Positions 14,169 to 45,196 of a stretch of 64,000 nucleotides of DNA are shown here, in pieces (the stretch's first letter is position 1; each line of letters starts with the position of its first letter). The translations under genes and the position numbers were made by a program. Source of the DNA: Halolamina sediminis (GTDB lineage: Archaea; Halobacteriota; Halobacteria; Halobacteriales; Haloferacaceae); contig NZ_CVUA01000001.1 in NCBI RefSeq assembly GCF_001282785.1, positions 2,480,001 to 2,544,000 of the forward strand, read 5' to 3'. The notes under the pieces were generated by a model. It did not search any database. It worked only from the letters and a program-made list of their open reading frames with translations, and was not told the origin of the DNA.

Positions 14169-14468
14169 ATGGAGCACCCACCACTCGCGGAACTCGACCC
14201 GTCGAATCGCGTGCGCAAACGCGCCCAGTACGAAGCCTTCGCGTTCTCGCTACAGGCCGGCGACGTCCGCGTTCGCAACGAGAGCCACCTCAACCCGGCC
14301 AAGCACGAGTACCGTGTCTCGGTCGTCGACGGCCTCCCCGTCAGCTGTACGTGTCCCGCCGACGAGCGGGACGACGACCCGTGCAAGCATCGCGTCGCCG
14401 TCGCGATCCGCCCGAAGATCCTCGAGGTCGCGATGGCGATGCAGGCCGTCAGCGACTGCGGGCCGTGA
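14169..14468 (+). CDS. SWIM zinc-finger protein
   Basis: This 99-residue protein has the SWIM pattern CTCPADERDDDPCKHRVAVA (C-x-C...C-x-H) near residues 60-80, a zinc-binding fold for DNA or protein contact. SWIM proteins are frequent on haloarchaeal mobile elements, often near transposition or recombination genes. The start at 14169 (MEHPPLAELDPSNRVRKRAQ) matches the usual haloarchaeal N-terminus; an ATG at 14136 would add 11 residues and sits in a hairpin. Function is probably regulatory and remains unassigned. Confidence 0.75.
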   Translation: MEHPPLAELDPSNRVRKRAQYEAFAFSLQAGDVRVRNESHLNPAKHEYRVSVVDGLPVSCTCPADERDDDPCKHRVAVAIRPKILEVAMAMQAVSDCGP

Positions 14469-14493
14469 TTTTCACCCCCAGGAAAGGGTGCGG
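14469..14493 (+). promoter_or_regulatory. T-run plus hairpin leader
   Basis: TTTT at 14469-14472 begins right after the stop of the SWIM gene. CCCCCAGGAAAGGGTGCGGG follows and can form a short stem. The ATG of the DUF6166 gene is 30 bases further on. Confidence 0.35.
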
Positions 14494-14523
14494 GAGTGCT
14501 CGCGTTGCCTCTCGCAACCCACT

Positions 14524-14895
14524 ATGAGTGGAACGATCGACGAGCCCACGACGGCACAGTCGACGACCGAGAAGACCGAAGTTCGGTACGTGGGGACGCG
14601 CGTTCGGGACGGCGTCCGCGTGCTGACGTACCCCGGAGCGACGGAACTCACGCCGGATCGGAGCCTCGAGATCGTGAGCCACAGCCCCTCGGGCTTCGAA
14701 TGGGGATATGGAGGGAGCGGCCCCGCCCAACTCGCCCTCGCGATCCTGCTCGACTACACCGACGATCCGGAAATCGCCCAGTCGCACTACCAAGCGTTCA
14801 AGCGCGAGATCGTGAGTCAACTCGAATGTACGGGGGGTGATGGGACGTGGACGCTCACGGCTGGCGAGATCGAGCAGTGGCTACCCGACGACTAG
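14524..14895 (+). CDS. DUF6166 family protein
   Basis: This 123-residue protein contains the DUF6166 hallmark GFEWGYGGSGPAQLALAILL at about residues 58-77. Ahead of it is a strand-rich N-terminus that begins with EVRYVGTRVRDGVRVLTYPG. The family is found on bacterial and archaeal plasmids and phages and has no known activity. Start at 14524 follows a leader hairpin. The previous gene ends 55 bases upstream, and the next genes are on the opposite strand, so this is a probable single-gene unit. Confidence 0.75.
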   Translation: MSGTIDEPTTAQSTTEKTEVRYVGTRVRDGVRVLTYPGATELTPDRSLEIVSHSPSGFEWGYGGSGPAQLALAILLDYTDDPEIAQSHYQAFKREIVSQLECTGGDGTWTLTAGEIEQWLPDD

Positions 14896-15006: not shown

Positions 15007-15867
15007 TCAGTAATCCCCGAGCACGCCCAGGCGACGAGCGCGCCGCGTAGTGAGGCCGAAGATAGCGTACCCCAGCGCCAGATAGCCAACCGACGTCCCG
15101 ACGAGCACGGCAATGGTCAGTGGGTCGAACTCCCAGAGGCGGACGCCGTCGCGCATGGCCCGCTGGAGCATCGCGCTCCCCTGGGCCAGCGGCAGGAATC
15201 GGGCCCACGGGATGTCGAAGACGGGCGCCGAGATGAGGCCGATGAACGCGAACTGGAGGAGGTTAGCCACGTTCGAGATGCGCTTGTAGAGCACGCTCAG
15301 GCCACCCATCACCAGGCCGAGCCCGAGCGCACCTGCGATGGTCAGCGTCGCCACCGGAAGCACAGTTACGAGGTTGAGGTCGAGCGTCGTCCCGGTGATG
15401 AGCAGCATCACGACCAGCACCACCGCGGAGGTCATGAACGTCCGGAAGACGATCGCGATGGATTTGGCGACGACGACCGGCCCGAAGCCGAACGGCGTCA
15501 TGAAGTGCCGCTCCAGCGTCCCCCAGCTCGCTTCGGACTGGATGTCGTTCATGATGCCCGAGTAGGCGCCGATGGCGAGCGTCCACAGGAAGTAGCCGAC
15601 GATCAGCCCCTCGATGGAGTCCGAGAACGCCTGCCCGGCGACCATCGTCCCCCCGTAGAACATCAGCGCGAAGAAGAACACGCCCATGAAGATCCCCAGC
15701 GCCGCGTTCAGCGGGTAGCGAACCCAGATCAACAGGTCGCGATAGATGACGGCCTTCAGGAGGTGGGAGTACCCCCCGGTTCGCTCGGGAGTGATGAACT
15801 GGGACGGCCCGTCTGTGCCGCTGGCCCCATCGCCCTCGCCTCGATCGTCGCCGGCAGCAGCCGTCAT
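15007..15867 (-). CDS. ABC-2 type transporter permease
   Basis: This 286-residue polytopic membrane protein has about six hydrophobic segments. Examples are AALGIFMGVFFFALMFYGG, IEGLIVGYFLWTLAIGAYSG and AVVLVVMLLITG. The topology and an acidic cytoplasmic N-terminus fit ABC-2 permeases that export drugs, polysaccharides or lipids. The ATG overlaps the stop of the upstream ATPase gene by four bases (ATGA), so they form an operon and one transporter. The substrate cannot be read from the sequence. The pair is on the opposite strand to the flanking accessory genes. Confidence 0.85.
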   Translation of the reverse strand: MTAAAGDDRGEGDGASGTDGPSQFITPERTGGYSHLLKAVIYRDLLIWVRYPLNAALGIFMGVFFFALMFYGGTMVAGQAFSDSIEGLIVGYFLWTLAIGAYSGIMNDIQSEASWGTLERHFMTPFGFGPVVVAKSIAIVFRTFMTSAVVLVVMLLITGTTLDLNLVTVLPVATLTIAGALGLGLVMGGLSVLYKRISNVANLLQFAFIGLISAPVFDIPWARFLPLAQGSAMLQRAMRDGVRLWEFDPLTIAVLVGTSVGYLALGYAIFGLTTRRARRLGVLGDY

Positions 15868-16988
15868 CTGCGGTCACCCCGCTCGCTCGCTGGCGAACGG
15901 TTGGCCGGTGCCTCCCGGGTCGGCGACGCGTCTCCCTCGCTTTCGCCATCCGGGTCGGCAGTGCCGTTCGTCATTTCGACGAACACCTCGGCGAGATCCG
16001 GCTGGACCGTCTCCACGCTCGCCACATCGAGGTCGTGCGTCTCCATCGCGTCGGTCAGGCGGTAGAACGTCGCCGTGTCAGCGGCCACCTCGAAGCGCAG
16101 TCGGTCGCCGGCGTGCTGGACGTCGGTCAGGTCGAAGCGGTCCTCGAGGTCCGCACGCGCCGTCTCGGATCCGCTGCGGGCGGTGATTCGGTACCCCCGC
16201 GTCTCGAACCCCGCCAGCAGGTCCTCGACGGTGTCATCGACGACCACTTGCCCCTCGTTCATGATGACGACGCGGTCACAGACGTCCTCGATAACGTCCA
16301 TATCGTGGCTGGAGATGACCAGCGTCAGCCCCCGCTCCTCGGCGAGTCTGTGGAGCTCGGTCCGGAGCTTCAGCGAGCTCTCGATATCCAACCCGAGCGT
16401 GGGTTCGTCGAGGAAGGCGACGGAGATGTCGCCCGCGAGGACGCTCGCCAGCGACACTTTCTGCTTCATCCCGCGCGAGAGATCCCGGACTGCCGTGTCG
16501 GCTTTCGCCGCGAGGTCGAGGTGTTCCAGCAGTTCCGCGTGACGGTCGGTGACGGCGTCGGGATCCTGGCCCCTGATCGCGGCGAAGTAGCGAAGGTTCT
16601 CTCGGACGGTGAGCCGCCAGTAGTCGTTGCGGGCCCCCTCCAGCATGGCGTCGACGTGCTCGTAGGCCGCTCGCGGGTTGGCGTGGACGTCGATCCCGTG
16701 AACGCGAACCGTTCCCGCATCGGGCAGAATCAGCCCGAGAATCGACTTGATCGTCGTCGTCTTGCCCGCGCCGTTCGGCCCGAGTAACCCCACCACCTCA
16801 CCGGGCTCGACCGCGAGGGAGACGTCCTCGACCGCGGTCACGGCATCCTCGCCGCTTCCGAACGTCTTCGCGAGGCCGTCGACGTAGATGGCGGCCTCGT
16901 CGGGGTTGAGTTCGGGGGCCCCATCGTTGGCGCTCCAGGGCCGTTCGTCGCCGCGCGCCTGACCGTTGGTGGAGGGCTTGCGTCCCAT
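15864..16988 (-). CDS. ABC transporter ATP-binding protein
   Basis: This 374-residue protein shows a full ABC cassette: Walker A GPNGAGKTT, signature LSRGMKQK, Walker B VAFLDEPTLGLD and H-loop SSHDMD. The roughly 80-residue C-terminal extension (from RGYRITARSGSETARADLED) is typical of multidrug or sodium exporters of the NatA/CcmA group. The ATG at 16988 (MGRKPSTNGQ) was preferred over one at 17072. The latter would add an unrelated basic leader and extend into the probable promoter. It is coupled with the ABC-2 permease downstream. It hydrolyses ATP to drive export across the membrane. Confidence 0.88.
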   Translation of the reverse strand: MGRKPSTNGQARGDERPWSANDGAPELNPDEAAIYVDGLAKTFGSGEDAVTAVEDVSLAVEPGEVVGLLGPNGAGKTTTIKSILGLILPDAGTVRVHGIDVHANPRAAYEHVDAMLEGARNDYWRLTVRENLRYFAAIRGQDPDAVTDRHAELLEHLDLAAKADTAVRDLSRGMKQKVSLASVLAGDISVAFLDEPTLGLDIESSLKLRTELHRLAEERGLTLVISSHDMDVIEDVCDRVVIMNEGQVVVDDTVEDLLAGFETRGYRITARSGSETARADLEDRFDLTDVQHAGDRLRFEVAADTATFYRLTDAMETHDLDVASVETVQPDLAEVFVEMTNGTADPDGESEGDASPTREAPANRSPASERGDRR

Positions 16989-17297
16989 CGGATGGGAGCC
17001 GGTTCGGCGCTTCGGGTCAAAAGGGTACTGTCGATAGAGGGTGTTATAGAACAGTTCCCATACTACTGCCATGCCCCAGTTGAATCGCTAAGTACAGCAG
17101 TAACATATCTCAAGGCCTCAAGAGAACGAGCCCACCGATGTATCGACAGCAAGTGCCGGTCCTGCAGGGCATCAGTCCCCGACCGGCTGACGAAAACACC
17201 GAACTGTCTTTCCCGACCCATCTGATCGCGAACCGCGGTTTTTCTGCCCCGGGAATGGGCGAGGGCGCAGAGAGCGTCCTCACGAAGGTGACTCCCA
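16989..17297. other. Divergent promoter region between the ABC operon and a small gene
   Basis: 309 bases with no gene. A+T-richer segments (17038-17110) may hold promoters for both directions. It ends in one of the T-run/hairpin leaders. Confidence 0.4.
17239..17260 (+). promoter_or_regulatory. T-run plus hairpin leader
   Basis: TTTTT at 17239-17243 is followed by GCCCCGGGAATGGGC (arms GCCC and GGGC) and GAGGGCGC. It precedes the ATG at 17298 by about 38 bases, as in the other copies of this leader. Confidence 0.35.
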
Positions 17298-20773: not shown

Positions 20774-21052
20774 ATGATCACCCGCTCAGTCACCATCGAG
20801 CCGATCGATGAACTGTATCTCCAGTGGCACGAGCACATCAACGCCTCAGCCCTCTATCGGCGTGCACTCCGCGAGGAGATGGCCGTTCGCGGTGTGGACA
20901 GCGATGAGCTCCGCGACTGCCTTGAGCGAGCGCAGGAGCAGGGGTACACGCTGGACGAGATCGCGACGGAAACCAACCGGTTTGCGGATCTGGCAGCACT
21001 CGTCGCCGACGAAGAGCCCGAATCACCCACTGCCGACAGTCCCACGGAGTGA
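20774..21052 (+). CDS. Small acidic protein at the head of the secretion block
   Basis: This 92-residue protein has a segment (HINASALYRRALREEMAVRG) that resembles the helical core of ribbon-helix-helix regulators, followed by an acidic tail. The ATG at 20774 is preferred to one at 20770, which is out of frame. It ends only five bases before the next gene's ATG at 21058 and so opens a run of tightly spaced genes through 28381. It may regulate the block or be a structural accessory. Confidence 0.6.
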   Translation: MITRSVTIEPIDELYLQWHEHINASALYRRALREEMAVRGVDSDELRDCLERAQEQGYTLDEIATETNRFADLAALVADEEPESPTADSPTE

Positions 21053-21057
21053 TCACG

Positions 21058-21477
21058 ATGGCCCAGCACACTGCCCCCGATGACCCTGCCCCGTGTCCCG
21101 CCTCCGAGACATCGACGACCCGGCGGCTCATCAAGCAGGCAGCCCTCACCGTCGTCCTCCTCAGCGTGGTCGCCGTCGAGCCCGTCGTCGCCCAGGACAA
21201 TGCCGTCTGTAGCGCGGACAACCTCCCCAGTATGATCGAGGGGTTCTTCCAGTTGACGACGGCGCTGGGGATCGTCGGCCTCGTCGTTGTGTGGCAGGCC
21301 GACTCGCTGCTCGAGATGTTCACCATCGACCGCGAACAGAAAGAGCGCTTCAAACGCCACAAGCGCTCGGCAATGAAGTCCGCGGTGGTGCTCGTCGTCC
21401 TCGGCCCGCTGTACACCGTCGCCGGCTCGATGATGAGCCTCCCGCTGGCTGAGTGTGTCAATCTCGTCCCCTGGTAG
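21058..21477 (+). CDS. VirB2/pilin-like small membrane protein
   Basis: This 139-residue protein has three hydrophobic segments: a signal-like one at about 25-47 (AALTVVLLSVVAVEPVVAQ), then two spans (ALGIVGLVVVWQA and AVVLVVLGPLYTVAGSMM) separated by a basic loop. A cleavable leader plus two membrane spans is the layout of VirB2/TrbC pilins. Two Cys residues (CSADN and ECVNL) could form a disulfide outside the membrane. An SD-like GGAGTG precedes the ATG at 21058. The context of VirB4 and VirB6-like genes supports the assignment, which remains inferred from topology. Confidence 0.6.
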   Translation: MAQHTAPDDPAPCPASETSTTRRLIKQAALTVVLLSVVAVEPVVAQDNAVCSADNLPSMIEGFFQLTTALGIVGLVVVWQADSLLEMFTIDREQKERFKRHKRSAMKSAVVLVVLGPLYTVAGSMMSLPLAECVNLVPW

Positions 21478-21489
21478 CCACCACTCCCC

Positions 21490-23223
21490 ATGGCGCCACG
21501 CGCCCCCGTCGTGGTCACCGCCGTGCTGTGTCTCGCCGCAGGAGTCGCCGCCGTGGGGACCGCGAACCCCCCAGCGCCGGGGACGGACGACAACGGCCTC
21601 ACCGAGAACGAGTCCGCGACGTTGTGGTCCCGCGACGCCGACAACTACACCGCCCAATCCGCGTATCGCCGCCGCTACGGTGAGTCGCGAACGGCGATGC
21701 AGCAGCTCGCGAACGGGACCGACATCACATTCACCCGGCCGCCAGCAACAGCTGCAACCTGGACGCGCAACGATTTCGCGGATCTCCATGCTGGCGGCCC
21801 GACCACGTCGGTCTCCCCCAGCGGCGCAACCCTCAAAAACGGGACGTTGATCGCCGACGCCCACGCGACGATCTTCGCCGCCCAGCCGTCGACGCGGGGC
21901 CATCTCGCGCCGAACGAGACCGTACAGTACCTTGCGCCGAACGGGACGCTCCGCGGGTTCGTCGACTACCGCGTTCGCCGCCCGAACGCGAGTCCGGGCG
22001 GCACCGGGACGACCGAGTGGTCGATCGCGAGCCACGAGATCGAGACCGTTCGACTGCTCCGCGACGGCGAGCCGATCGTCGACCGCAACGGGACCCACAC
22101 GCCGACGCTGCAGTACGACCTTCGGACCGATGGCCAGGTGACGGTAACGCTCGAAGCAACGATCCACGTCCGGCTCCGTGGCACGGTCCGCGATAACGGG
22201 ACTGGGGCCGCAACGAACACCACGGTCAGGACCGAGACGCTCACCGTTCGCGACTCGCTGACGGCTGAGGTGTACGACCTCTCGGCGTCGGTCTACTACG
22301 CCGAGTACGCCAACGGTGACACTGGCGTCGCCGTCTTCCAGACGCGGCCGTGGCAGGGGTACACCCTCACCGCGAACGAGTCACCGCGCGTTCGCGGCGT
22401 CTGGCGGTTCTACACGGCCCGCGACACGAGTTGGGACACGCTCACCCGAACGAACGGCACGGCGACGGAGACGGTTGCCTCGGATGCGGTCCCCGTCTTC
22501 GTCCACGCCTACCCCTCGCGGATCGGCCCCCGTGCGGAGCCAGTCCGGGATGGGCCGACCATCCTCGAGACGTGGGGGACGACCGCGGCGTCGCCGGCGC
22601 CGACGCTGGGCGAGAACATCACCATCGATGTGGTGCATCACCCGTACACGGCCAGTTACGGTGTCGCCGTGCGGGCGGCTCGTGTCGATCCCGGTGCGAT
22701 CAACATCGGCGGTATCGTCCGCGGAGTGAACGCCTCGATTACCGAACCGAACGACGGGTTCGAGCGCCCGCTCACCCGGAGCAACCTGACGGCGACCATC
22801 CGGGAGCAGACTCAGTCTGGGGCGCGCGTTCGCGTGACGCTCCGGACTGCCGATAGGGGCGAGCCGATCGTTCTCGACGACAGTGCCCGCGACGGCCCAA
22901 CCGTGCGGCCGGAACGCACCGGCTACATCACCATCGCCGGCCAGCGCGTCGAGACGAATGCGTCGGGCGTCGCCGTCGTAACGGTTGACCAGCCCGGAAT
23001 CTACACGGTGCGGTATCACCCGGAGTCGTGGGTGTCACAGTCGTCCGCGTACGTCGGCGATACCGCGACTGTTCGGTGGCATCCACTCACCACGCTCGAT
23101 GGCTGGGTCGCGCTCCTGCTCGAGGTGGGCTGGCAGTTGCTTCCGTTCGTCGTCGCGCTCTACGCCGGGCGTCGACTACTGGCGTTGCTGAGTCCTGCAG
23201 GGCGGTACTCCGACAGCCAATGA
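21490..23223 (+). CDS. Large exported surface protein of the secretion block
   Basis: The 577-residue protein has an N-terminal signal (PVVVTAVLCLAAGVAAVGTA) and a single C-terminal membrane span (ALLLEVGWQLLPFVVALYAG) with a short basic tail. The body is beta-rich and contains many N-x-S/T sequons, so it is probably a glycosylated extracellular protein anchored at its C-terminus. It is separated from the pilin-like gene by 12 bases and overlaps the next gene as ATGA. A surface adhesin or channel component of the conjugation apparatus is a fair guess. No family is recognised. Confidence 0.7.
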   Translation: MAPRAPVVVTAVLCLAAGVAAVGTANPPAPGTDDNGLTENESATLWSRDADNYTAQSAYRRRYGESRTAMQQLANGTDITFTRPPATAATWTRNDFADLHAGGPTTSVSPSGATLKNGTLIADAHATIFAAQPSTRGHLAPNETVQYLAPNGTLRGFVDYRVRRPNASPGGTGTTEWSIASHEIETVRLLRDGEPIVDRNGTHTPTLQYDLRTDGQVTVTLEATIHVRLRGTVRDNGTGAATNTTVRTETLTVRDSLTAEVYDLSASVYYAEYANGDTGVAVFQTRPWQGYTLTANESPRVRGVWRFYTARDTSWDTLTRTNGTATETVASDAVPVFVHAYPSRIGPRAEPVRDGPTILETWGTTAASPAPTLGENITIDVVHHPYTASYGVAVRAARVDPGAINIGGIVRGVNASITEPNDGFERPLTRSNLTATIREQTQSGARVRVTLRTADRGEPIVLDDSARDGPTVRPERTGYITIAGQRVETNASGVAVVTVDQPGIYTVRYHPESWVSQSSAYVGDTATVRWHPLTTLDGWVALLLEVGWQLLPFVVALYAGRRLLALLSPAGRYSDSQ

Positions 23224-24062
23224 CCTCCAACAACTCCCTCATCGATCGACGCACCGCGCTTCGAACGTTCGTCATCGGCGCCACCGTCGGTGTCAGCGGC
23301 TGTGCCGCGGATGATGGGCCAGCCGGTCCGGGGACCGAGTCAAGGACTGCGCAGAATCGGGCGAGTGCCGGCCCGTTTCAGGCGGTTGGCGTCGACGGCA
23401 CGACGCTGGTCGTCAAGCTCGCCGCCGAGACAGCGGTTGAGCAGGTGAACCTCATCAAACCGAACGGCGAACTGTGGGGGACCCGCGACGTCGCCGCCGG
23501 CGCCAAGCAGGTGTCTTTCGAGTTCCGGACCGCGTACACGCCCGGTGAGTACGACGTCGTCGGCGTCGACGGCGAGGAGACGGTCGCGGAAACGTCGCTG
23601 GAGATCCGTCCTGAGCTCGAGATCCGTGAAGTGGGGCTGTATCGGAACCATCCAGACAAACCGTGGGAGGAGGTGTACGGGGAATCGGAGACGAATCGGC
23701 TGGTCAACGGTCAAGCATTCGTGACTGTGGAGAACACGGGAACTGGGCCAGAGACAGTAACTGAACTCGTGTTCTCCGGCGATGTTCCTGGACCTACGGA
23801 AGATCCATGGAGTAATGGCATGCAAAGAACTGACCGGGCACTCATCCCAGCTGGCCAAACAATTGAGCTCTATAGTTCGTCTGCTCCGTTTGGATCAAAA
23901 TCTCCGGACGGTATGGGATGCTCGCCAGATGGGAATAATGGCCAGTTCACAGTCGTCCTAGAGACTGCCGTCAAATCCTCCAATACAACTCAAACGTTCG
24001 ATGTCCAGTATACCAGCTCAACAGAGATGACCGATTGTGATGTAACCGTCACGGAGGTGTAG
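23220..24062 (+). CDS. Tat-exported lipoprotein of the secretion block
   Basis: This 280-residue protein begins with a twin-arginine motif (DRRTALRTFVIGA) and a lipobox-like VSGC. It is therefore probably exported folded through Tat and attached to the membrane by a lipid on that Cys. The mature part is beta-rich with an Ig-like look, and its later codons (after about 23700) become A+T-richer than the first half. Start at 23220 overlaps the preceding stop (ATGA). It is followed two bases later by the VirB6-like gene. A role as a surface subunit of the secretion apparatus is inferred from context. Confidence 0.75.
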   Translation: MTSNNSLIDRRTALRTFVIGATVGVSGCAADDGPAGPGTESRTAQNRASAGPFQAVGVDGTTLVVKLAAETAVEQVNLIKPNGELWGTRDVAAGAKQVSFEFRTAYTPGEYDVVGVDGEETVAETSLEIRPELEIREVGLYRNHPDKPWEEVYGESETNRLVNGQAFVTVENTGTGPETVTELVFSGDVPGPTEDPWSNGMQRTDRALIPAGQTIELYSSSAPFGSKSPDGMGCSPDGNNGQFTVVLETAVKSSNTTQTFDVQYTSSTEMTDCDVTVTEV

Positions 24063-24064
24063 CG

Positions 24065-25165
24065 ATGGTTGATCTGATTGATGTCGTCCTTGAGGGGATC
24101 AAGGCTAGCGTCGATTGGCTTGTTAGCCAGTTCATGAACGGGCTCCGATCAGGGTATCAGACCCTTTCGGAGGCAATGCTCGGAACGCCGACACCGAGGA
24201 CCAACGGGCCATTCGTGTTCGGAGAGCCAACGAACCAACCGTGGGTTGAGCTCCAAGACACGCTTGTCGGCGGTGAAATCGTGCTAATCGCGCTGCTCCT
24301 TCTCGTGGTGAGTGTCCAAGGGCGACATGCAATCCGGATCTTCAATATCGGGAGTAACTACGAGGCACGGAAGACCAAGAAGAATGCGTGGACTGGTGCG
24401 TTCCTGATTATCGTGTGGTACTGGGTCGGAACGCTATCGCTTTACCTCGTCGACGGGTTCACGATTGCTCTCCTTCCCGCTGTGGGGGTACTGACCGATC
24501 TGATGCTGGATCTCTTGAGAGGCTCTATCACCAATCCCGCCCTCTCCCTCCTCTTCGCTCTTGCCGGCGGTATCTCCATGTGGGCACTGCAGGCGCTCCT
24601 CTACATCCGCGAAATCTTGCTCTACGTCTACCTCTACGGGATGCCGATCGCCATCGCCGTCGCTTACGGTAACGTCCCGATCCTGTCGAGTATCGGCCAC
24701 GGGTTCGCGAAACGCTTCGTCCCGCTCACCGTCCTCCCACTCCCGGCAGCGATCGTGTTCAAGGGGTACGACATCGTCTACTCGACGGGCGGCCTCTCGC
24801 CCAACACACCGTTCCTGCAGTATCTCGTCGCCGTCTCCCTCCCCGTCGTCGCCCTCTACGCCACGTGGCAGACGTTCAAGTACGCCACTCCACTGACCGC
24901 GAAAGCCCTCAGCGGTGTCACCCGCGGCGCAGCGCTCGTCGGCGGCGTCGCCGCCGGTGCGTACGCCGGAAACGCGAGCGTCGCAACGACCGCCGCACGA
25001 TGGGGCCCCAAAGCCGCCGCGGGCCAAGCAGTCGCCCAGAAAGCCGCTGCTCGAAGTGAAGACGGCGATGGGAATGGGGAGCCGTCCTACCGTCGCACTG
25101 AAAACGAGCCGAGTGGGAGCGAATCGAACGATTACGGGATGGACTTCGATCGCGGGATCCACTAA
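24065..25165 (+). CDS. VirB6/TrbL-like polytopic membrane protein
   Basis: The protein is 366 residues. At least six hydrophobic spans are visible between about residues 70 and 305 (EIVLIALLLLVVSVQG, GAFLIIVWYWVGTLSLYLVD, LLLYVYLYGMPIAIAVAYG, FLQYLVAVSLPVVALYATW). A hydrophilic, acidic C-terminal tail follows. This matches VirB6/TrbL channel proteins of type IV secretion systems. The gene lies between the lipoprotein and the VirB4-like ATPase with spacing of two and three bases, so it is clearly cotranscribed. The first part of the gene, to about 24500, is A+T-richer than the rest. Confidence 0.75.
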   Translation: MVDLIDVVLEGIKASVDWLVSQFMNGLRSGYQTLSEAMLGTPTPRTNGPFVFGEPTNQPWVELQDTLVGGEIVLIALLLLVVSVQGRHAIRIFNIGSNYEARKTKKNAWTGAFLIIVWYWVGTLSLYLVDGFTIALLPAVGVLTDLMLDLLRGSITNPALSLLFALAGGISMWALQALLYIREILLYVYLYGMPIAIAVAYGNVPILSSIGHGFAKRFVPLTVLPLPAAIVFKGYDIVYSTGGLSPNTPFLQYLVAVSLPVVALYATWQTFKYATPLTAKALSGVTRGAALVGGVAAGAYAGNASVATTAARWGPKAAAGQAVAQKAAARSEDGDGNGEPSYRRTENEPSGSESNDYGMDFDRGIH

Positions 25166-25168
25166 TCC

Positions 25169-28100
25169 ATGAGCTCAGACAACGACGCAGCCGCACGGCG
25201 CATCATGGACCAGTTCGGCGAGGAGAGCCGTATTCCCTACCTCAACATCGAGGAGGGCGATGTCGGCGTCCTGATCGCGTTCCCCATCGCGGGCTTGTTC
25301 CTTGCCAGTCTCACCGGCGTCGAATCACTCGCACTCCCCCTGATCGCCGCCGGCACGGGGTTCGGCACGGCGGTCGTCTACGTCACGCCCGAGCACATGA
25401 ACGCATGGACGTGGACGACCGACGTATACCAGTACCTCAAGCGCCCCAGGGCCACGTTTAGCGCCCCAGAGGAGGCCGACAGTAGTACCAACGAGGCAGA
25501 GCGCAACGAAGGTGGTCTCGCGAACTACACGCCGTTCACACCGGACGAGCGGACACAGGACCTCACCAACATCGAGCGGGCGTGGCCCGGGGCCGGCGCG
25601 GTACAGCGCGTCGACGGGACGATGGAGGCGTTCATCGAGGTCGACCCGGGGAACATGGACTTCGCCATGTCCGAGGACTGGGCCCAACTGCAGGACGCCG
25701 GCGCGGCGTTCGCGAACAAGGAACTCGACGCGAAGTTGACGTTCCACGCGACGACCCGGTCGTTTCCGGTGGAACAGCTAACCGAGACGATCGAGGACCG
25801 CCTCGACGACGAAGACGTCGAAGCCAACCCGATCTTCCGAGAACTCCTCGAGGAGTACCGGGACACGCGGCCGAAAGAAATGCGCGAACGGGGGATCCAA
25901 CAGGTGCAGTACTACATCGGCGTCGAGGTCTCGCCGCTGGACGTGTACGACCGCTACCGGGAGGAGGCCACGCCGGCCGAAAAACTGACGCAGCTTCCCG
26001 TGCTCGGTATGCTGTTCACGCCGTTCGTGACCCGACGCGAGGACCTCACCGACGTCGAGCGGCGGGCGCGGATGTTCGAGGAGCTGGATAGTCGGGTTGC
26101 CGACGTGCGGACAGAGTTCATCCAGCAGGCCTCGAGCTGGTCGGCCCGCCGCCTCAGCACGGTCGAGCTGTTCCTCCTGAACATGGCGTTCTGGAACGGT
26201 CGCGAGGACGACTACGGCGATGCTGCGGAGGTTGTTCGTGAACAGCCGGTTGTCGGCCACTCGCGCCGGGAGGACCAGGCGATGCGTAGCGCGATCATCC
26301 AGTCGGGTGTCTTGAGACAGCTCCGAGAGTGGCTTGCGTCGCCGACGACCGTCGAGGGGGCCGCGCTCTATCTGGTGCTCGTCAGCGCCGTCGTTGCCGG
26401 TGGCAAGGTGCTGTGGGATCGGTATCGCGCTAACGACGAGGAAACAGTCGACTTCTCTGAGGTCCTCGACGAGGAGACGCTCGCCGATGGGCAGGCCGAA
26501 GGCCAACTGCTCGACGACATCGCCGAGTCCCACAAGACCGTCACGGCACCCGACGCCATCGAGTGGGAGACCCGTGCCGCCCGTGTCGGCGACCAGTGGA
26601 CGTCGACGCTGTACATCGCCGACTATCCGGACTACCCCACTGACGGCTACCTCAGCGAGCTGTTCGAGCTGACCGACGTGCAGTTCGATCTAACCGCCCA
26701 CATCACGCCGAAGAACCAGGAGCGCGCGCGGACCGAACTGCAGGAGATCGCCGACGACCTGCAGGTGGACGCCGATCTGGAGCAGAGCGTGCGGAGTTCG
26801 TACCTGCAGGAGCGGGCGGACGAGGCGGCGGCGACATATACGGCCGTCGAGAACGGGGCTCGGGTGTTCGATCAGGGTGTGTTCGTGACGGTGCGCGCCG
26901 ACGATCGGGAAACACTACAGGATGACGTGCAGCAGGTGAAGAGCACGCTGCGGGACGAGCCGGCGAACCTGACGCCGAAGACGGCGATCTGCCGGCAGGG
27001 CGTGGCGCTGCAGTCGGCGGCGCCGATCGGCGCGAACGAGTTCGGCCGCGAGTCGATCGCGCTGGGTGGCGCCGTCGGGGCGTTGCTGGCGGCGCCACAC
27101 AACGCAACGATTCTGGAGGAAGGTGGCGTCGAGTTCGGGATGCACAAGGATACGCGGAGCCCCGTGGTGATCGATCCGTTCAACAGGGAGAACGGGTACG
27201 CGATGTTCACCGTCGGCGATCCCGGCTCGGGGAAGTCGTTCAGTTCCAAGCAGAATTTCATCCGGTCGATCGAACAGAGCACGGGCCGTATCGGCATCAT
27301 CCTCGAACCGTTGAACGATTGGGCAGGTGTCGCGGAAGCGCTCGATGCGAAACGCATCACTGTCGGCGGGACGCTCGGGTTGAATCCCCTCGAACTGCGG
27401 GAAACGCCGGAGCGCGTCCAGCGCGCGATGGGCGAGGACGCCAGTCCGTTCAACGAGAAACTCGACGACGCGATGAGTTTTCTGACGAACTTCTTCGCGT
27501 TACGTGGGGTCTCGCTTGGAGATCGACGAACGACGCTGGAACTCGGGCTCAAGCGCGCGTACAATCGCAACGACATCACCGACGATATCTCGACGCACGA
27601 CAACCCGAGTCCGACTATTCGGGACATGATGGACGTCTTCGAGGATATGGTTGACGAGCCCGAGGCGTTCGTCGTGCGGGCCGACGAGGAAGCGAAGAAG
27701 CTCAAAGAGGACGCGACGTGGTTGCTCGACCAGCTCCGTCCCTTCGAGGAAACCGGGCGGCATTCGAATCTCGGACAGTCCTCAGAGTTTGATATTCGCG
27801 ATCAAAAGGTCATCTATCTGGATTTAGCCCAGCAGGAGGGGAGTGTGGATAGTGGGACGGCCTTAACGATGCAGTTGTTGATCTCACTGGTCTACGAGCG
27901 TGCGAAAGTCTCGAAGAAGGAGGTCGTCTTCTACATCGACGAAGCTCGTTATCTCATGCAGGACGCCGCGAGTCTCGCGTTCCTTGAGACGGTGTTTCGC
28001 CACCACCGACATCACGACCTCTCGATTCGCCTCGTGACGCAGACGGTTGATGAGTTCTTCGAACACGCCGAGAGTGAGGCCATTCTTGACCAGTGTGCGG

Positions 28101-28381
28101 TGAAGCAGTTCCACCGGTTGGACGGGATGGACGAAGAGTGGGCCCAGGAGTTCGGATTGAACTACGCCCAGATGCGGTATGTGCAGGACGCGGTGCCGGG
28201 GAATGAGGATGCGGGGTTTGCGGAGGCGCTTATTGGGGTGGATGGCGAATGGCGCGGGATTCAGGTTGAGGCGATGCCCAACGAGAAGCAAGTGATTGAC
28301 TTTGACCCGACTGAGCAAGAACGGTCGTCGCTGCCTGGCGCCGACGAAGAACGTAGTGAGGCCGGTCGGACTGACACGTAG
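25169..28381 (+). CDS. VirB4-like conjugation ATPase with VirB3/PrgI-like N-terminus
   Basis: The protein is 1070 residues. A two-span membrane segment near residues 30-75 (VGVLIAFPIAGLFLASLTG, LPLIAAGTGFGTAVVYV) resembles VirB3/PrgI fused ahead of VirB4. Another hydrophobic span lies near 397-414 (ALYLVLVSAVVAGGK). Walker A GDPGSGKS is at about 683-690 and Walker B (VVFYIDEA) at about 919. VirB4 ATPases energise pilus assembly and transfer. Start ATG at 25169 follows the VirB6-like stop by three bases. The C-terminal half recurs as a truncated copy at 29641 and a deleted copy at 32895. Confidence 0.85.
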   Translation: MSSDNDAAARRIMDQFGEESRIPYLNIEEGDVGVLIAFPIAGLFLASLTGVESLALPLIAAGTGFGTAVVYVTPEHMNAWTWTTDVYQYLKRPRATFSAPEEADSSTNEAERNEGGLANYTPFTPDERTQDLTNIERAWPGAGAVQRVDGTMEAFIEVDPGNMDFAMSEDWAQLQDAGAAFANKELDAKLTFHATTRSFPVEQLTETIEDRLDDEDVEANPIFRELLEEYRDTRPKEMRERGIQQVQYYIGVEVSPLDVYDRYREEATPAEKLTQLPVLGMLFTPFVTRREDLTDVERRARMFEELDSRVADVRTEFIQQASSWSARRLSTVELFLLNMAFWNGREDDYGDAAEVVREQPVVGHSRREDQAMRSAIIQSGVLRQLREWLASPTTVEGAALYLVLVSAVVAGGKVLWDRYRANDEETVDFSEVLDEETLADGQAEGQLLDDIAESHKTVTAPDAIEWETRAARVGDQWTSTLYIADYPDYPTDGYLSELFELTDVQFDLTAHITPKNQERARTELQEIADDLQVDADLEQSVRSSYLQERADEAAATYTAVENGARVFDQGVFVTVRADDRETLQDDVQQVKSTLRDEPANLTPKTAICRQGVALQSAAPIGANEFGRESIALGGAVGALLAAPHNATILEEGGVEFGMHKDTRSPVVIDPFNRENGYAMFTVGDPGSGKSFSSKQNFIRSIEQSTGRIGIILEPLNDWAGVAEALDAKRITVGGTLGLNPLELRETPERVQRAMGEDASPFNEKLDDAMSFLTNFFALRGVSLGDRRTTLELGLKRAYNRNDITDDISTHDNPSPTIRDMMDVFEDMVDEPEAFVVRADEEAKKLKEDATWLLDQLRPFEETGRHSNLGQSSEFDIRDQKVIYLDLAQQEGSVDSGTALTMQLLISLVYERAKVSKKEVVFYIDEARYLMQDAASLAFLETVFRHHRHHDLSIRLVTQTVDEFFEHAESEAILDQCAVKQFHRLDGMDEEWAQEFGLNYAQMRYVQDAVPGNEDAGFAEALIGVDGEWRGIQVEAMPNEKQVIDFDPTEQERSSLPGADEERSEAGRTDT

Positions 28382-28590: not shown

Positions 28591-29103
28591 TCAGTCTTGA
28601 AGCGAATCGAGTTTCTGGGCGATCTTCGCGTAGACATCGGGTGCACAGTACCATCCTTCCTCGATCATCGAATCGATCACATCTCGCGCGTCGTCAGTGC
28701 TGATCGCCCCCTGCGTTGTGAGTTTCAACACGAGATACGCTGTTCCTCTGGTCGTGATTCCTTCGGCGGCGGCAACGTCCCGACCGTACGTCTCGTCCAT
28801 CACGGCAGTCCCGTCGTGTGCGTCGGCATACGCAAGCACGGCGATGTCTGCGTCGCTGAGGGAGGGATTCTGCTGGAGCCGGGAGAAGAGTGGCGTCGAT
28901 TCGACCGGTTGCACCACGAAGTGGCCTGCATCGACGCTCCGTTCGACACGGCGAGCGTCCGGATACCCCTCTTCGATTCCGGTTTCGACCACCTCGTCGT
29001 AGACACGACTAGGGATAATGCACTCCTCGTCAAGGTGTTGGACGAGCGTGAGTCGATCAGTCTTCGCGAGATAGATGAGGGGCGTCGCGTCGAACACCCA
29101 CAT
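28591..29103 (-). CDS. PIN-domain toxin (DUF3368-like)
   Basis: The 170-residue protein starts MWVFDATPLIYLAKTDRL with the first catalytic Asp at position 5. Further acidic motifs (LSDADIAVLAYADAHDG, VMDETYGRD) follow at the usual PIN positions. Members cleave RNA and act as toxins. The ATG directly follows the stop of the UPF0175 gene (TGA ATG), so they are one operon, antitoxin first. It lies between the VirB4 gene and its truncated copy, as element cargo that may stabilise inheritance. Confidence 0.85.
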   Translation of the reverse strand: MWVFDATPLIYLAKTDRLTLVQHLDEECIIPSRVYDEVVETGIEEGYPDARRVERSVDAGHFVVQPVESTPLFSRLQQNPSLSDADIAVLAYADAHDGTAVMDETYGRDVAAAEGITTRGTAYLVLKLTTQGAISTDDARDVIDSMIEEGWYCAPDVYAKIAQKLDSLQD

Positions 29104-29640: not shown

Positions 29641-31563
29641 TTGAGGCACTTGAGCAGGTTGGTCGTGAACTGGTACGCTGGTGTCCACCTCCTCGAAGGC
29701 ATCGCCAAATCGCACAAGACCGCGACGGCGCCGTCAAAGAATGGGTTGGAGACTTGGGCTGCTTGTGTGGGCGAGCAGTGGACGTCGACGCTCTACATCG
29801 CCGACTACCCGAGTGATGGCTACCTCAGCGACCTGTTCGAACTGACCGACGTGCAGTTCGATCTAACCGCCCACATCACACCGAAGAACCAGGAACGGGC
29901 CCGCAACGAACTGCAGGAGATCGCCGACGACCTGCAGGTGGATGCCGACCTCGAACAGAGTGTTCGGAGTACGTATCTCCAAGAGCGGGCGGATGAGGCG
30001 GTGGCGACGTACACGGCGGTCGAGAATGGGGCAAGTGTGTTCGACCAGGCCGTGTTCGTTACGGTGCGCGCCGATGATCGGGAGACGCTACAGGACGACG
30101 TGCAGCAGGTCAAGAGCACGCTGCGGGACGAGCCCGCGAACCTCACACCGAAGACGGCGATCTGTCGGCAGGAGGTAGCGCTGCAGTCGGCGGCACCGAT
30201 CGGGGCGAACGAGTTTGGCCGGGAATCTATCGTGCTCGGTGGCGCCGTCGGGGCGCTGCTGGCGTCGCCGCACAACGCGACGATCCTCGAGGAAGGTGGC
30301 GTCGAGTTCGGGATGCACAAAGATACTCGGAGCCCAGTCGTGATCGATCCATTTGCGCGGGACAACGGCTACGCGATGTTCACGGTCGGCGACACCGGGT
30401 CGGGGAAGTCGTTCAGTTCCAAGCAGAACTTCATCCGGTCGATGGAGCAGGTGCGCGACCGGATCGGCGTCATCCTCGAACCGCTGAACGACTGGGCCGG
30501 CGTCGCCGAAGCGTTGGACGCGAAGCGGATCACGGTTGGCGGGACGCTCGGACTGAATCCGCTCGAAATTCGGGAGACGCCTGAGCGTGTGCAGCGGGCG
30601 ATGGGGGAAGATGCGAGCCCGTTCAACGAGAAGCTCGACGACGCGATGAGTTTTCTCACGAACTTCTTCGCGCTGCGGGGGATTTCGCTGGGAGATCGAC
30701 GGACGACAATGGAGCTCGGGCTCGAGCGCGCGTACAAGCGCAAGGGCATCACTGACGTTATCTCGACGCATGGGAATCAGAGTCCGACGATTCGGGATAT
30801 GCTGGACGTGTTTGAGGACATGGTCGAGGAACCGGAGGACTTCGTCGTCCGGGCTGACGAAGAGGCGACGAAAATCGAGGAGGACGCGACGTGGTTGCTT
30901 GATCAGCTCCGGCCGTTCGAGGAAGGTGGCCGTCACGCGAACCTGGGAACCGAGTCCGAGTTCGACATTCGGGACGAGAAGGTGATCTACCTGGATCTCG
31001 CGCAGCAGGAGGGGCGTGTGGATAGTGGGACGGCGCTGACGATGCAGTTGTTAATCTCGCTGGTCTACGAGCGTGCGAAAGTGTCCGAGAAGGAGGTGGT
31101 GTTCTACATCGACGAAGCACGCTACCTGATGCAGGACGCCGCGAGTCTGGCGTTCTTGGAGACAGTGTTTCGGCATCACCGCCATCACAACCTCTCGATT
31201 CGGCTTGTGACGCAGACCGTCGACAAGTTCTTCGAGCACACCGAGAGTGAGGCGATTCTCGACCAGTGCGCGGTGAAGCAGTTCCATCGGTTGGACGGGA
31301 TGGACGAAGCGTGGGCTCAAGAATTCGGGCTCAACTACGCCCAGATGCGATACGTACAGGACGCGGTGCCCGGGAACGAGGATGCCGGATTCGCAGAGGC
31401 ATTGGTCGGCGTCGATGGGGAGTGGCGCGGGATTACCGTTGAGGCGATGCCGAAGGAGAAGGAAGTGATAGATTTCGACCCGGCGGGGGAAGCACCATCG
31501 TCGCTACCCGGTGCCGACGATCAACAGAGTACGAACGGTCGGCGGGGTTCAGCAGACGAGTAG
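29641..31563 (+). CDS. VirB4-like ATPase, N-terminally truncated second copy
   Basis: The 640-codon frame is closely similar to residues of about 447-1070 of the full-length copy at 25169, and lacks the VirB3-like and first VirB4 segments. Walker A is GDTGSGKS at about residue 250, and Walker B VVFYIDEA is intact. The first 20 residues are unrelated to the parent. The start shown is TTG at 29641; no ATG precedes the homologous part. The upstream 245 bases contain a hairpin and an ATTTCGGAAA direct repeat. It may be a decoy, a spare motor domain or an inactive duplicate. Differences from copy 1 are spread evenly, so divergence is not recent. Confidence 0.7.
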   Translation: MRHLSRLVVNWYAGVHLLEGIAKSHKTATAPSKNGLETWAACVGEQWTSTLYIADYPSDGYLSDLFELTDVQFDLTAHITPKNQERARNELQEIADDLQVDADLEQSVRSTYLQERADEAVATYTAVENGASVFDQAVFVTVRADDRETLQDDVQQVKSTLRDEPANLTPKTAICRQEVALQSAAPIGANEFGRESIVLGGAVGALLASPHNATILEEGGVEFGMHKDTRSPVVIDPFARDNGYAMFTVGDTGSGKSFSSKQNFIRSMEQVRDRIGVILEPLNDWAGVAEALDAKRITVGGTLGLNPLEIRETPERVQRAMGEDASPFNEKLDDAMSFLTNFFALRGISLGDRRTTMELGLERAYKRKGITDVISTHGNQSPTIRDMLDVFEDMVEEPEDFVVRADEEATKIEEDATWLLDQLRPFEEGGRHANLGTESEFDIRDEKVIYLDLAQQEGRVDSGTALTMQLLISLVYERAKVSEKEVVFYIDEARYLMQDAASLAFLETVFRHHRHHNLSIRLVTQTVDKFFEHTESEAILDQCAVKQFHRLDGMDEAWAQEFGLNYAQMRYVQDAVPGNEDAGFAEALVGVDGEWRGITVEAMPKEKEVIDFDPAGEAPSSLPGADDQQSTNGRRGSADE

Positions 31564-32415: not shown

Positions 32416-32876
32416 CAAGGTACTCAACAAGCAGGAACGGACGACAGTGTTTGGCGAGACGTTCGAGGTGTTCAAGGGTCGATAGCTCTCAATGGCGAGT
32501 CGGCGACACCCGTCGAGGACGAGGAGAATGAACAGATCACTCGGGTCGGGCGCGTGTTGCGGCGCACGCACCTCGACGAGATCCCACAGCTCTGGTCGAT
32601 CTTGGTTGGGGATATGATTGTGGTCGGTCCGCGAGCGGTGTGGACGCAGGAGGAGTCGCTGTTGGAGGCCCAAGAGCGGACCTGGTGGAAGCGGTGGTTC
32701 GTGAACATGGGTTGACGGGGCTGGCGCAGGTGAACGACGTGAAGAGTACGAACCCGGTGGAGAAGTTGCGGTACGATCTGCAGTACGTGAAAGAGCAGTC
32801 GTTCACGTCGGACGTGAAGATCGTCGTCAGGCAGGTTTGGAAGGTGGTGGATGTGGTGAGTACGGTCCGGGACTAA
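32416..32876 (+). pseudogene. Decayed exopolysaccharide sugar transferase (WbaP-like) fragment
   Basis: Three reading frames must be joined. They give KQERTTVFGETFEVFK, then TRVGRVLRRTHLDEIPQLWS with LVGDMIVVGPRA, then LTGLAQVNDVKSTNPVEKLR to DVVSTVRD. These are the C-terminal motifs of polyprenyl-phosphate sugar-1-phosphate transferases that start surface glycan synthesis. A TAG and at least two frameshifts (near 32480-32510 and 32710) disable it. It stands at the junction between the conjugative element and the glycosyltransferase island and may be a relic of the island's initiating enzyme. Confidence 0.75.
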
Positions 32877-32894: not shown

Positions 32895-33314
32895 GTGTCT
32901 AGTGGTGAGTCGGTGGAGAAGGCACGGGACCGGATCGGCATCATTCCTGAACCGCTGAACGACTGGGCCGGCGTCGCCGAAGCGCTCAACGCGAAGAGAA
33001 ATTCGGTCGGCGGGATGCTCGGGCTAAATTCACCAGAGATCGACGAGTTCTTCGAACACGCCGAGAGTGAAGCCATTCTTGACCAGTGTGCGATGAAGCA
33101 GTTCCATCGGTTGGACGGGATAGCGAGGAGTGGGCCCAGGAAGTTCGGACTGAGATACGCCCAGATGCGGTAGGTACAGGATGCGGTGCCCGGGAACGAG
33201 GATGCCGGGTTCGCGGAGGCAATTGGAGTCAATGATAAATCGCGTGGACTTTCGGTTGAGGCTATGTCTAAAGAGAAGCGGGTTATTGACTTTGCCCCCA
33301 CCGAACAGAAGTAG
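32895..33314 (+). pseudogene. Third VirB4-like copy, internally deleted remnant
   Basis: The sequence matches two separate parts of the VirB4-like gene: RIGIIPEPLNDWAGVAEALN around the region after Walker A, then directly DEFFEHAESEAILDQCA from the C-terminal part. About 220 codons, including Walker B, are missing. A TAG at 33171-33173 interrupts it, after which the frame continues to 33314 with PGNEDAGFAEA and VEAMSKEKRVIDFAPTEQK. It is clearly inactive. Confidence 0.75.
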
Positions 33315-33489: not shown

Positions 33490-34605
33490 CTATAGGATCG
33501 AATCATAGAGTCTCCGGTAGTCTGAGACCATCCGGTCTTCCGTAAAACGATCTACGGCAACCTGTTGTGCACGTTTTCCCATCTCTCGTCGTTGCTCCGG
33601 ATGTTTGAGGAGTGTTTCAACTCGACCAACGAAACGACTGTTGTCCGCGTCTGGAGGGACGACAAAACCGGTTTTCCCATCGTCGATAGCCTCGGCGACG
33701 CCACCGACATCGTGTGCGACGAGGGGTACACCTGCATGTAGACACTCTAGTATAGTCAGTGGGAACCCCTCGAACCGTGACGGTAGCAAGAACACGTCGA
33801 AGTCCGGGAGAAATTCTAGCGCATTATCCACGAATCCCGGCATATAGACGCTATCTAAGCCGTGTTCGTCGACATATTGGATACATTTGTCCTTAAGCGG
33901 CCCGCTGCCGATGAGGACAGTTGCAATCTCGTATCCGTCATCTCTGAGCTGCTTCGCGGTTTTGAGGATTGCTATCGGATCTTTTTGGGCCGCAAGTCTT
34001 CCTATCGAGCCAACAATTGGTGTGTCTGGATCGATCTCGAATTCATCGTAGAGAGTGCTCCGATTAGACGAATATTGTAGTGGTGGAATCCCGTTATGAA
34101 TGACGGTTCCGGACTCCTCAGAGAGAATTCCGTGACGCCTACCCTCTCGGAGGTCGTTTCGAGATACGCAGACCACTTCGTCAGTGCGTCGCTCAAGGAA
34201 CCGTTCTCCCTTAATTACGATTGGACGGAGTGATCCGTATTCAGTGTTGTAAAATCCCCATCCATGGACGGTGAAAACGCTTGGAACCCCCACCCTGGAT
34301 GCTGCGAGGCGGGCAAGTGCTCCTGCCTTTGTGCTGTGACTGTGTACGAGATCAAACTCTCCTCCCGCGATAAGCTGCCGCAAGTCTCGATACGCGAGTA
34401 CATCTTTTGGATGAGGTGTACTCTGTAAATACGGTTGAACATGAACCTGTACCCCCTGCTTTTTGAGTCGGTTAATTAATCGCCCGCCAGGACCACAGGC
34501 AACGGCCGTGACATCGTCAATATTGGTTGCTAACGACTCGACAACACGAGGTGCACCACCCCAATCAGATCGGGTGATTATCTGTAGAATCTCATGTGAA
34601 CTCAT
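33490..34605 (-). CDS. Glycosyltransferase family 4 protein
   Basis: This 371-residue two-domain GT-B protein has an N-terminal acceptor-side domain with LVHSHSTKAGALARLA. The C-terminal nucleotide-sugar domain carries GSIGRLAAQKDPIAILKTAK and the E-x7-E motif (FEGFPLTILECLHAGVPLV). GT4 enzymes are retaining transferases that add sugars to lipid-linked or protein-linked glycans at the cytoplasmic face. This is the first gene of the polysaccharide island and is read towards the element. It shares a 361-base divergent region with the polymerase gene. Sugar specificity cannot be read. Confidence 0.88.
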   Translation of the reverse strand: MSSHEILQIITRSDWGGAPRVVESLATNIDDVTAVACGPGGRLINRLKKQGVQVHVQPYLQSTPHPKDVLAYRDLRQLIAGGEFDLVHSHSTKAGALARLAASRVGVPSVFTVHGWGFYNTEYGSLRPIVIKGERFLERRTDEVVCVSRNDLREGRRHGILSEESGTVIHNGIPPLQYSSNRSTLYDEFEIDPDTPIVGSIGRLAAQKDPIAILKTAKQLRDDGYEIATVLIGSGPLKDKCIQYVDEHGLDSVYMPGFVDNALEFLPDFDVFLLPSRFEGFPLTILECLHAGVPLVAHDVGGVAEAIDDGKTGFVVPPDADNSRFVGRVETLLKHPEQRREMGKRAQQVAVDRFTEDRMVSDYRRLYDSIL

Positions 34606-34966
34606 TTGAGGTATCCCAGCTGTTCTAACTGATATGTTATCGTGTCCGATACAATATCTCTATCGGAGGGAGGCTTTCGTTTCTCAGTTTCCGGAGGCAA
34701 CTGGAATAGTAACCCGGTCACGTCAGGAGTGTGCGGGAGCGCTTTTCAGCATTATTGGCGGGACTCGATACATAGAGAACTTATACAGAATTGAATCAAT
34801 CACTAGTCAGTATATCACGAAGTGACTATTAATCACCGGATCCGATCTACTTCCTACGAGGACAGTCTAGTCTTAAAACTCTTATTAAGAACTACTATAA
34901 AATTGATCATGTCCGTTCTAGTAGTTCGGAACCTCCATATGTTGTCGGTATCTAACTAAACAGTAA
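34606..34966. other. A+T-rich divergent intergenic region
   Basis: 361 bases with no convincing gene. Strongly A+T-rich DNA (34770-34960) probably holds promoters for the glycosyltransferase on the minus strand and the polymerase operon on the plus strand. Confidence 0.45.
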
Positions 34967-37275: not shown

Positions 37276-37299
37276 GGTGTCGTAATCAAGATTTGAGCT

Positions 37300-38256: not shown

Positions 38257-38325
38257 TGTTACGTGTGAAGAATACAGATCACCATAAATAGTCACCGAAC
38301 ACTCTTTAACTGTATAGTCAATAAG

Positions 38326-39450: not shown

Positions 39451-39635
39451 CCTGAGACACTTCTAGTACAGAATTGTTATGATTACGGTTGACTTGGTTT
39501 CTATGACCTCAACTGAGGTTACTTCCAGCATCTATTGATAACAGCCAGCTTAGCCACCGATATAAATTACTTCGGCGTCATTAGAATCCCTTCTGCGGGC
39601 GACATACATTTGTACCAAAGACGAACAGACCACAT

Positions 39636-40430: not shown

Positions 40431-40485
40431 ATATTCATTACTCGTGAGTGTATGGTACCCTAATGATGTTCTCAGGTATGGTTAG

Positions 40486-41970: not shown

Positions 41971-42300
41971 CGTGTCGGAAGTGGAGTTGGTCTAAGTTTA
42001 GACATTAGACTATCGGCCGCTGGTTGGCACTCGGATTCCCGCCGTTTAATAGAGTAACCTTCTCCTCATTACGCCTTTCTTCTTGTCTCACGATTGTAAT
42101 TCAACGTCGCACTGTTGTCGGCCACTACTGTCACAAGTTTCCGCAGTCGTTTGTTCGGATCAGACTAGCCGCGCTACTCAGCTGTCTACCATCAGATTGC
42201 CGGTTACACTGAACGTCTCTATTAGCTGACCAGCAGCCCCTCATCATTATCTATAACCGAGTATTGTGGTCGGCAAGGTGGTTTAATTTGTATTTTGATA
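41971..42300. other. Intergenic region, no gene seen
   Basis: 330 bases upstream of the flippase gene and downstream of the deacetylase gene, both on the minus strand. Short frames here lack protein character. It probably contains the flippase promoter. Confidence 0.4.
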
Positions 42301-45118: not shown

Positions 45119-45196
45119 GATCAGAAATTGGGCCAGTTAGTATAAAAGCAGCCAGGTATTCACGCGTCGAGTCCCTCAGTAGTTTGGAGGGATTCG

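Follow-up and report, generated by a model that had tools for sequence, protein, structure and literature searches.

The window analysed here, a 64,000-nucleotide stretch of Halolamina sediminis (positions 2480001-2544000 of a single 2.84 Mb contig), carries at 20774-28381 a gene block that is probably the mating-channel operon of a haloarchaeal conjugation-type type IV secretion system (T4SS) with VirB4, VirB6 and VirD4, from a family of plasmids that in this genome would have settled in the chromosome. The nearest relatives of the genome are Halolamina pelagica and H. rubra. The operon and its coupling-protein gene (window coordinates throughout) comprise:

20774-21052, plus strand: small first gene of the operon, 92 aa; its plasmid ortholog (74% identical) lies directly upstream of the pilin gene, and it also occurs in Halolamina relatives
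21049-21477, plus strand: VirB2-like pilin candidate, from layout and position
21490-23223, plus strand: 577-aa surface protein (alignment of 28 sequences, AlphaFold2 model)
23220-24062, plus strand: twin-arginine translocation (Tat) lipoprotein, 280 aa, with twin arginine and lipobox GC (G27, C28)
24065-25165, plus strand: VirB6/TrbL channel protein (PF19590 TrbL_3)
25169-28381, plus strand: VirB4 ATPase, fused VirB4-N and VirB4-C, 1070 aa (NCBIfam conjugal ATPase models)
1-3107, minus strand, continuing to about -490 outside the window: VirD4-type coupling protein, 1199 aa (PF10412)

All open reading frames (ORFs) listed in a preliminary description of this DNA were recovered at the same coordinates, and the block of tightly spaced pilin-like, 577-aa, lipoprotein, VirB6-like and VirB4 genes that it proposed was confirmed by the ORFs, by selection and by synteny, with six tightly packed plus-strand genes in all. 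The first-gene start at 20774 was backed by plasmid orthologs beginning at the identical MITRSVTIE.. site, and the lipoprotein start was placed at 23220, not at the longest-ORF start of 23028. The VirD4-like gene that had been noticed at the left edge proved real, with PF10412 above cut-off; it lies on the minus strand and runs past the window edge. A plus-strand ORF at 9-1397, inside this gene, was rejected as an antisense artefact.

The T4SS identity suggested earlier was borne out by family models for three proteins. VirB6 matched PF19590 TrbL_3 (E 8.8e-127; 423.5 bits vs a cut-off of 23), and VirD4 matched PF10412 TrwB_AAD_bind (24.5 bits vs a cut-off of 20.5) and was homologous to the plasmid protein encoded downstream of VirB4 (30% over 1107 aa). 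VirB4 matched the NCBIfam models conju_CD1110 (E 1.1e-38), VirB4_plasma (E 3.9e-37) and TraC-F (E 7.4e-18), with scores under the curated cut-offs of these equivalog conjugation models that establish superfamily membership only; RefSeq already labels the ATPase a 'VirB4 family type IV secretion system protein'. The pilin candidate, VirB6 and VirB4 sequences gave no meaningful match to solved structures in the PDB, and neither did a VirB4-N profile.

The gene that the preliminary description had named VirB4 needs one correction. The 1070-aa protein is a lineage-specific fusion of a ~370-aa upstream gene (VirB4-N) and the ATPase gene (VirB4-C), which are separate in all relatives compared. In these relatives the VirB4-N stop overlaps the VirB4-C start, whereas in the window the stop has been lost through small junction deletions that join the frames, leaving the reading frame intact across both parts. 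The fusion was seen in the assembly alone and may stem from a sequencing error. Two other loci carry short direct duplications ~4.3 kb apart, situated at the VirB4 end or shortly after it (L096, 16809-16942 and 21102-21235; L107, 16590-16708 and 20966-21084), with transposase-like ORFs between the copies in L096.

The surface proteins had been described as matching no recognised family, and the Pfam and NCBIfam scans agreed, as the pilin-like, 577-aa and lipoprotein products had no family above cut-off; they are conserved yet unstudied families. The pilin candidate has an N-terminal hydrophobic segment and two more hydrophobic segments with a basic loop between those two, and C50 and C132 are invariant in an alignment of 20 orthologs; it is this layout, with the operon position, that suggests the name. 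The 577-aa protein consists of an N-terminal hydrophobic helix, a beta-domain (~106-262), an Ig-like domain (~430-530) and a C-terminal membrane helix (536-567). In its AlphaFold2 model (mean predicted local distance difference test (pLDDT) score 64), the long-stranded beta-domain and the Ig-like domain were the well-modelled parts, and the centre (~276-417) was mostly unmodelled, with pLDDT below 50. Comparison with the PDB retrieved a CbhA Fn3-like module (Z 7.8, root-mean-square deviation (rmsd) 2.2 over 86 residues), invasin (Z 8.2, rmsd 2.1 over 76 residues) and alpha-2-macroglobulin (Z 8.4, rmsd 1.9 over 71 residues), Z-values of a size common among beta-sandwiches that say nothing on function. 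The model suggests Ig/Fn3-like beta-domains joined to a C-terminal membrane anchor, and, as a guess from gene place and predicted fold, the protein might act in cell contact. In the lipoprotein, RR and GC are kept in most of 15 orthologs, some of which are N-terminally truncated, and a weak DUF4982 match fell below cut-off.

Related systems were widespread among haloarchaea. Of 391 haloarchaeal genomes, 194 had TrbL_3 and 199 had the 577-aa protein, and 29 loci with a related block were recovered when genome contigs were scanned. As the preliminary description had proposed to check, the order pilin, 577-aa protein, lipoprotein, VirB6, VirB4-N, VirB4-C was found to be kept in the loci that were long enough, across many haloarchaeal genera, with few exceptions: no pilin was detectable in the group of greatest divergence (L106-L109, 34-38% identity), and no lipoprotein in one locus (L098). 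Among plasmids in PLSDB, 280 records had some VirB4 match (113 covering at least 80%) and 116 had the 577-aa protein, the best records being 82-85% (VirB4) and 60-66% (577-aa protein) identical to the window copy. The interpretation offered earlier was mostly right in kind, but the machine is not new: the system is of a known and widespread type, already common as a haloarchaeal plasmid module. Its 577-aa surface component is conserved in roughly every second haloarchaeal genome, and its unexplored parts are the surface set and DNA processing. No description of the operon was found in our literature search, with most subscription papers outside its scope. In viral contigs, a scan that detects close relatives only gave no confirmed relatives of the 577-aa protein, VirD4 or VirB4, and a viral origin of the block was rejected.

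To characterise the plasmid family, stretches of six circular records were examined, and three records were covered from end to end. Much of a backbone is common to four records of 94-113 kb, namely a ParA-like protein, a tyrosine integrase, the T4SS operon and VirD4; the three fully examined plasmids also encode a primase, a TFIIB-like transcription factor (TFB), an ArdC-like protein and Orc1, and two of the three encode PolB. PLSDB typing assigned five of the six to MPF_T and classed every one as non-mobilizable, with no known relaxase. A DNA primase small-subunit-like gene, with PF01896 just above cut-off, follows virD4 in eight loci, and three chromosomal relatives have an NrS-1-type polymerase gene after VirB4 instead. 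Among the indirect signs that the cargo would be single-stranded DNA, this repeated primase link is the strongest. Separately, the exonuclease VII genes xseA-xseB, unusual in this position, stand directly upstream of the T4SS operon on four plasmids (L132, L134, L043, L044).

The haloarchaeal plasmid blocks (for example those of pJ7-1 NC_018225, Natribaculum luteum unnamed2, Haloprofundus halobius unnamed3 and Haloarcula sp. SYNS111 unnamed1) have the six-gene order of the window and share its ArdC, TFB, OB-fold and DUF6166 genes. They differ in having a split VirB4, VirD4 directly downstream with the primase, and ParA, Orc1, integrase and often PolB, whereas the window copy is chromosomal, its VirB4 is fused, and its virD4 is divergent and distant (17.6 kb from the operon, opposite strand). 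The proteins shared with one plasmid, with their identities, are VirD4 (30%), TFB (60%), OB-fold (70%), DUF6166 (59%), ArdC-like (73%) and the product of the small gene (74%). Further genes and gene fragments in and beside the element are:

3273-4211, plus strand: TFB transcription factor, divergent from virD4 (PF00382, E 8e-38)
11571-12470, plus strand: OB-fold DNA-binding protein, plasmid backbone (70% to plasmid ortholog; weak PF01336, below cut-off)
14314-14895, plus strand: DUF6166 protein, plasmid backbone (PF19663, E 3e-31; 59% to plasmid ortholog)
17682-18683, plus strand: ArdC-like single-stranded-DNA-binding anti-restriction/metalloprotease-type protein (73% to plasmid ArdC-like protein; Peptidase_M78 at cut-off, ArdcN below cut-off)
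28591-29103, minus strand: PIN-type (DUF3368) toxin candidate (PF11848), which stands upstream of the operon in G073 and L081
29104-29394, minus strand: UPF0175 antitoxin candidate (PF03683)
29641-31563, plus strand: second VirB4, N-terminally truncated, of another element lineage (83% DNA identity to copy 1)
32427-32874, plus strand: remnant of the 3' part of a wbaP-like glycan gene, degenerate (83.6% identity to the intact copy over 456 aligned bases, direct orientation)
32910-33311, plus strand: VirB4 gene debris, two out-of-register fragments

The divergent virD4-TFB pair likewise occurs in four Halolamina relatives, and in one Halolamina genome (G073) virD4 is divergent to the operon as in the window. 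A TFB gene also lies no more than 10 kb from the T4SS in seven non-Halolamina loci (L088, L096, L102, L103, L106, L108, L109). Roughly estimated from ~7-12 TFB genes in each genome, this frequency exceeds expectation, and the element may carry its own transcription factor. An ABC transporter pair lies within the element at 15007-17072, and such a pair is likewise found beside the T4SS on a Halolamina pelagica contig (C37).

The tested genes of the window copy are under purifying selection. Against three Halolamina relatives, the ratio of nonsynonymous to synonymous substitution rates (dN/dS) was 0.06-0.38 for every gene tested: 0.06-0.15 for VirB4, VirB6 and VirD4 (VirD4 0.11), 0.17-0.26 for the two surface proteins (577-aa protein 0.24-0.26) and 0.32-0.38 for the pilin candidate. 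These ratios, together with the conserved gene order, indicate that the ORFs are real and not chance. The second VirB4 is 88% identical to Halolamina pelagica (G089) and copy 1 is nearer to G073, which indicates that two element lineages met here.

The flanks of the element contain glycan genes. An intact wbaP-like gene lies at -3216..-1783, left of virD4, and its degenerate fragment lies right of the truncated VirB4; in G073 (C1), diverged direct epimerase-like 3'-end repeats flank the element (g73 59356-59742, 101105-101486 and 102386-102695; offset 1656000). With two cases, insertion next to glycan genes is a pattern and no proven mechanism. The flanks of the window and G073 elements differ, which indicates that at least one element has moved. 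Extension to both sides, also proposed in the preliminary description, gave no attachment (att) sites besides these diverged glycan-gene fragments. ARAGORN found no tRNA genes in the window, and an empty-site search with the right-flank glycosyltransferase gave, within the genus, distant paralogs only. Right of the element, a low-GC (44-52%) stretch at 33490-46453 holds glycosyltransferase genes and is probably a polysaccharide cluster.

Several results weigh against the reading of the block as a conjugative mating channel. The pilin candidate has no Pfam match and no sequence match to any solved pilin in the PDB, VirB4 scores below the conjugation-specific cut-offs, and the operon proteins have no Pfam match to VirB8 or VirB3. 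Within the window element there is no ortholog of ParA, Orc1/Cdc6, PolB, primase or integrase; the primase was not found anywhere in this genome, and no tyrosine integrase (PF00589) lies within ~295 kb, the nearest being at least that far away when the contig is counted as a circle. In agreement with the preliminary description, neither relaxase nor integrase was found in the window: no scanned element protein matched a relaxase family, leaving room for a new one, and no origin of transfer (oriT) was found. Since the copy has no replication, partition or integrase genes, it may have lost its autonomy as a transfer element, and the lack of these modules together with the adjoining broken T4SS fragments means that it may be transfer-inactive. 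Either the window copy is an integrated element that needs helpers, or it is a domesticated remnant on which selection still acts.

These observations bear on two related alternatives. A former conjugative plasmid, integrated in the chromosome and losing genes, is a possible though not the favoured account, and one compatible with the explanation of the operon given above. It would explain the truncated second VirB4, the VirB4 debris, the wbaP fragment, the missing primase, ParA, Orc1, PolB and integrase, and the fusion of VirB4 by small deletions; on the other hand, the six operon genes and virD4 are all open, the dN/dS values are low in the genes tested, and the fusion keeps the frame. We consider it rather unlikely that the system is instead a domesticated DNA-import or recombination system like Ced/Ted, in which the chromosomal Halolamina copies would move chromosomal DNA between cells for repair. 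The T4SS sits on the chromosome both in the window genome and in G073 (C1), it is kept in four Halolamina genomes other than that of the window, the two copies that could be examined have no replication or integrase modules nearby, selection is purifying, and Ced/Ted too consist of VirB2-, VirB4- and VirB6-like proteins (PMC9905601). However, the retained VirD4 coupling protein, ArdC and toxin-antitoxin genes are element-like, and the differing flanks and the tandem T4SS fragments of two lineages indicate that elements have moved.

Two further alternatives concern what the system does. A T4SS for protein secretion or contact killing, not DNA transfer, would fit the relaxase not being found, as relaxase-less bacterial T4SSs are often protein exporters (PMC3158045), but the plasmid linkage to DNA primases, ArdC and the OB-fold protein, and the plasmid-borne occurrence in many genera, make this very unlikely. 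Least credible of all, and close to dismissal, is a cell-fusion element in which the 577-aa protein is a membrane fusogen like the fusexin Fsx1. Fsx1 has a similar layout (large ectodomain, C-terminal membrane helix) and a similar VirB4-carrying element context (PMC9259645), and the top Foldseek row of the 577-aa model was dengue E, a class II fusogen; that row, with a TM-score of 0.10 and an rmsd of 37.8, is meaningless noise. A 577-aa profile searched against all PDB sequences (E up to 1) did not retrieve Fsx1, the confident parts of the model, which is too weak to judge a class II fusogen fold, resemble Fn3 and Ig/MG-type sandwiches, and no fusexin was among the VIA-align rows listed.

Returning to the conjugation-type T4SS, the C-terminal ~230 residues of the coupling protein bear on the missing relaxase. 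They comprise a winged-helix-like part followed by a D..ExE..DxDK motif, and D111, E126, E128, D140, D142 and K143 (first-row numbering) are invariant in twelve proteins of two groups; another coupling-protein group has PD..ExE..K in a similar position. These two kinds of C-terminus were not linked when their profiles were compared, so that they resemble each other by motif only. Pfam and PDB searches with this region gave weak winged-helix-type matches only, and an AlphaFold2 model from four close sequences (pLDDT 39.5) was useless. That the coupling protein carries the missing relaxase as a fused, nuclease-like C-terminal domain is an improbable but concrete suggestion drawn from the motif. 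As another relaxase candidate, Rep-Arvir (PF25227, PMC13107129) was rejected: it is present in 265 of 391 genomes but absent from the element region, its sole copy in this genome (C1:14953-15942) is far from the element, and comparison by eye showed no regular link with the T4SS among the matches listed. That copy lies near an integrase at C1:3472, likely in another mobile element of this genome.

We infer a pilin role, an adhesive role, a single-stranded DNA cargo and DNA transfer itself in the following arrangement. The pilin-like protein would build a thin filament or channel extension, and the 577-aa Ig-like protein and the Tat lipoprotein, on the outer membrane face beneath the S-layer, would make or stabilise contact with the recipient. 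VirB6 would be the membrane channel, VirB4 (the two-gene fusion) would power assembly, and the VirD4-like ATPase, encoded next to its own TFB, would feed DNA. The primase gene after virD4 in the plasmid relatives and the ArdC-like protein would fit a single strand that is protected and primed in the recipient.

In gene content, which is the basis of this comparison and not a VirB4 phylogeny, the system resembles MPF_FATA (firmicutes, actinobacteria, tenericutes, archaea; PMC3158045, PMC12102498), which likewise has VirB4, VirB6, VirD4 and a monoderm-type envelope; the window block differs in having no known relaxase or VirB8/VirB1 family match and in its haloarchaea-specific surface proteins. 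Archaeal elements with VirB4 and a coupling protein but no relaxase have been reported since 2011 (PMC3158045). Thermococcus pT33-3, whose transfer requires VirB4 and VirD4 (as reviewed in PMC12857230), and the Sulfolobus conjugative plasmids have VirB4 and VirD4 homologs and no recognised relaxase, as here, but only these two proteins are recognisable in them (PMC12857230), whereas the operon described here is conserved and also encodes VirB6, two surface proteins and a pilin candidate. The Ced/Ted systems share the VirB2-, VirB4- and VirB6-like trio but are chromosomal import systems of thermophiles (PMC9905601), in contrast to a system with a VirD4 protein and relatives on plasmids. Integrated mobile elements with Fsx1 are also haloarchaeal and encode, besides VirB4 and TraG/VirD4, a surface protein of large size (PMC9259645), which has no sequence link to the 577-aa protein, and the pR1SE-type plasmid-vesicle elements are set apart by description, their apHPV core set being different (PMC10818511).

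Haloarchaea exchange genes heavily, and their conjugation machinery has barely been described; the question why archaeal conjugative elements have no relaxase goes back at least to 2011 (PMC3158045, PMC12857230). The analysis delimits an operon with a channel, a pilin candidate, two proteins of the outer face, a split VirB4 and a coupling protein, and gives its distribution, its primase association and one concrete candidate domain for strand processing, all of them testable in genetically tractable haloarchaea. If the C-terminal domain of the coupling protein nicks the origin of transfer, a classical tyrosine relaxase would not be needed for conjugation in haloarchaea.

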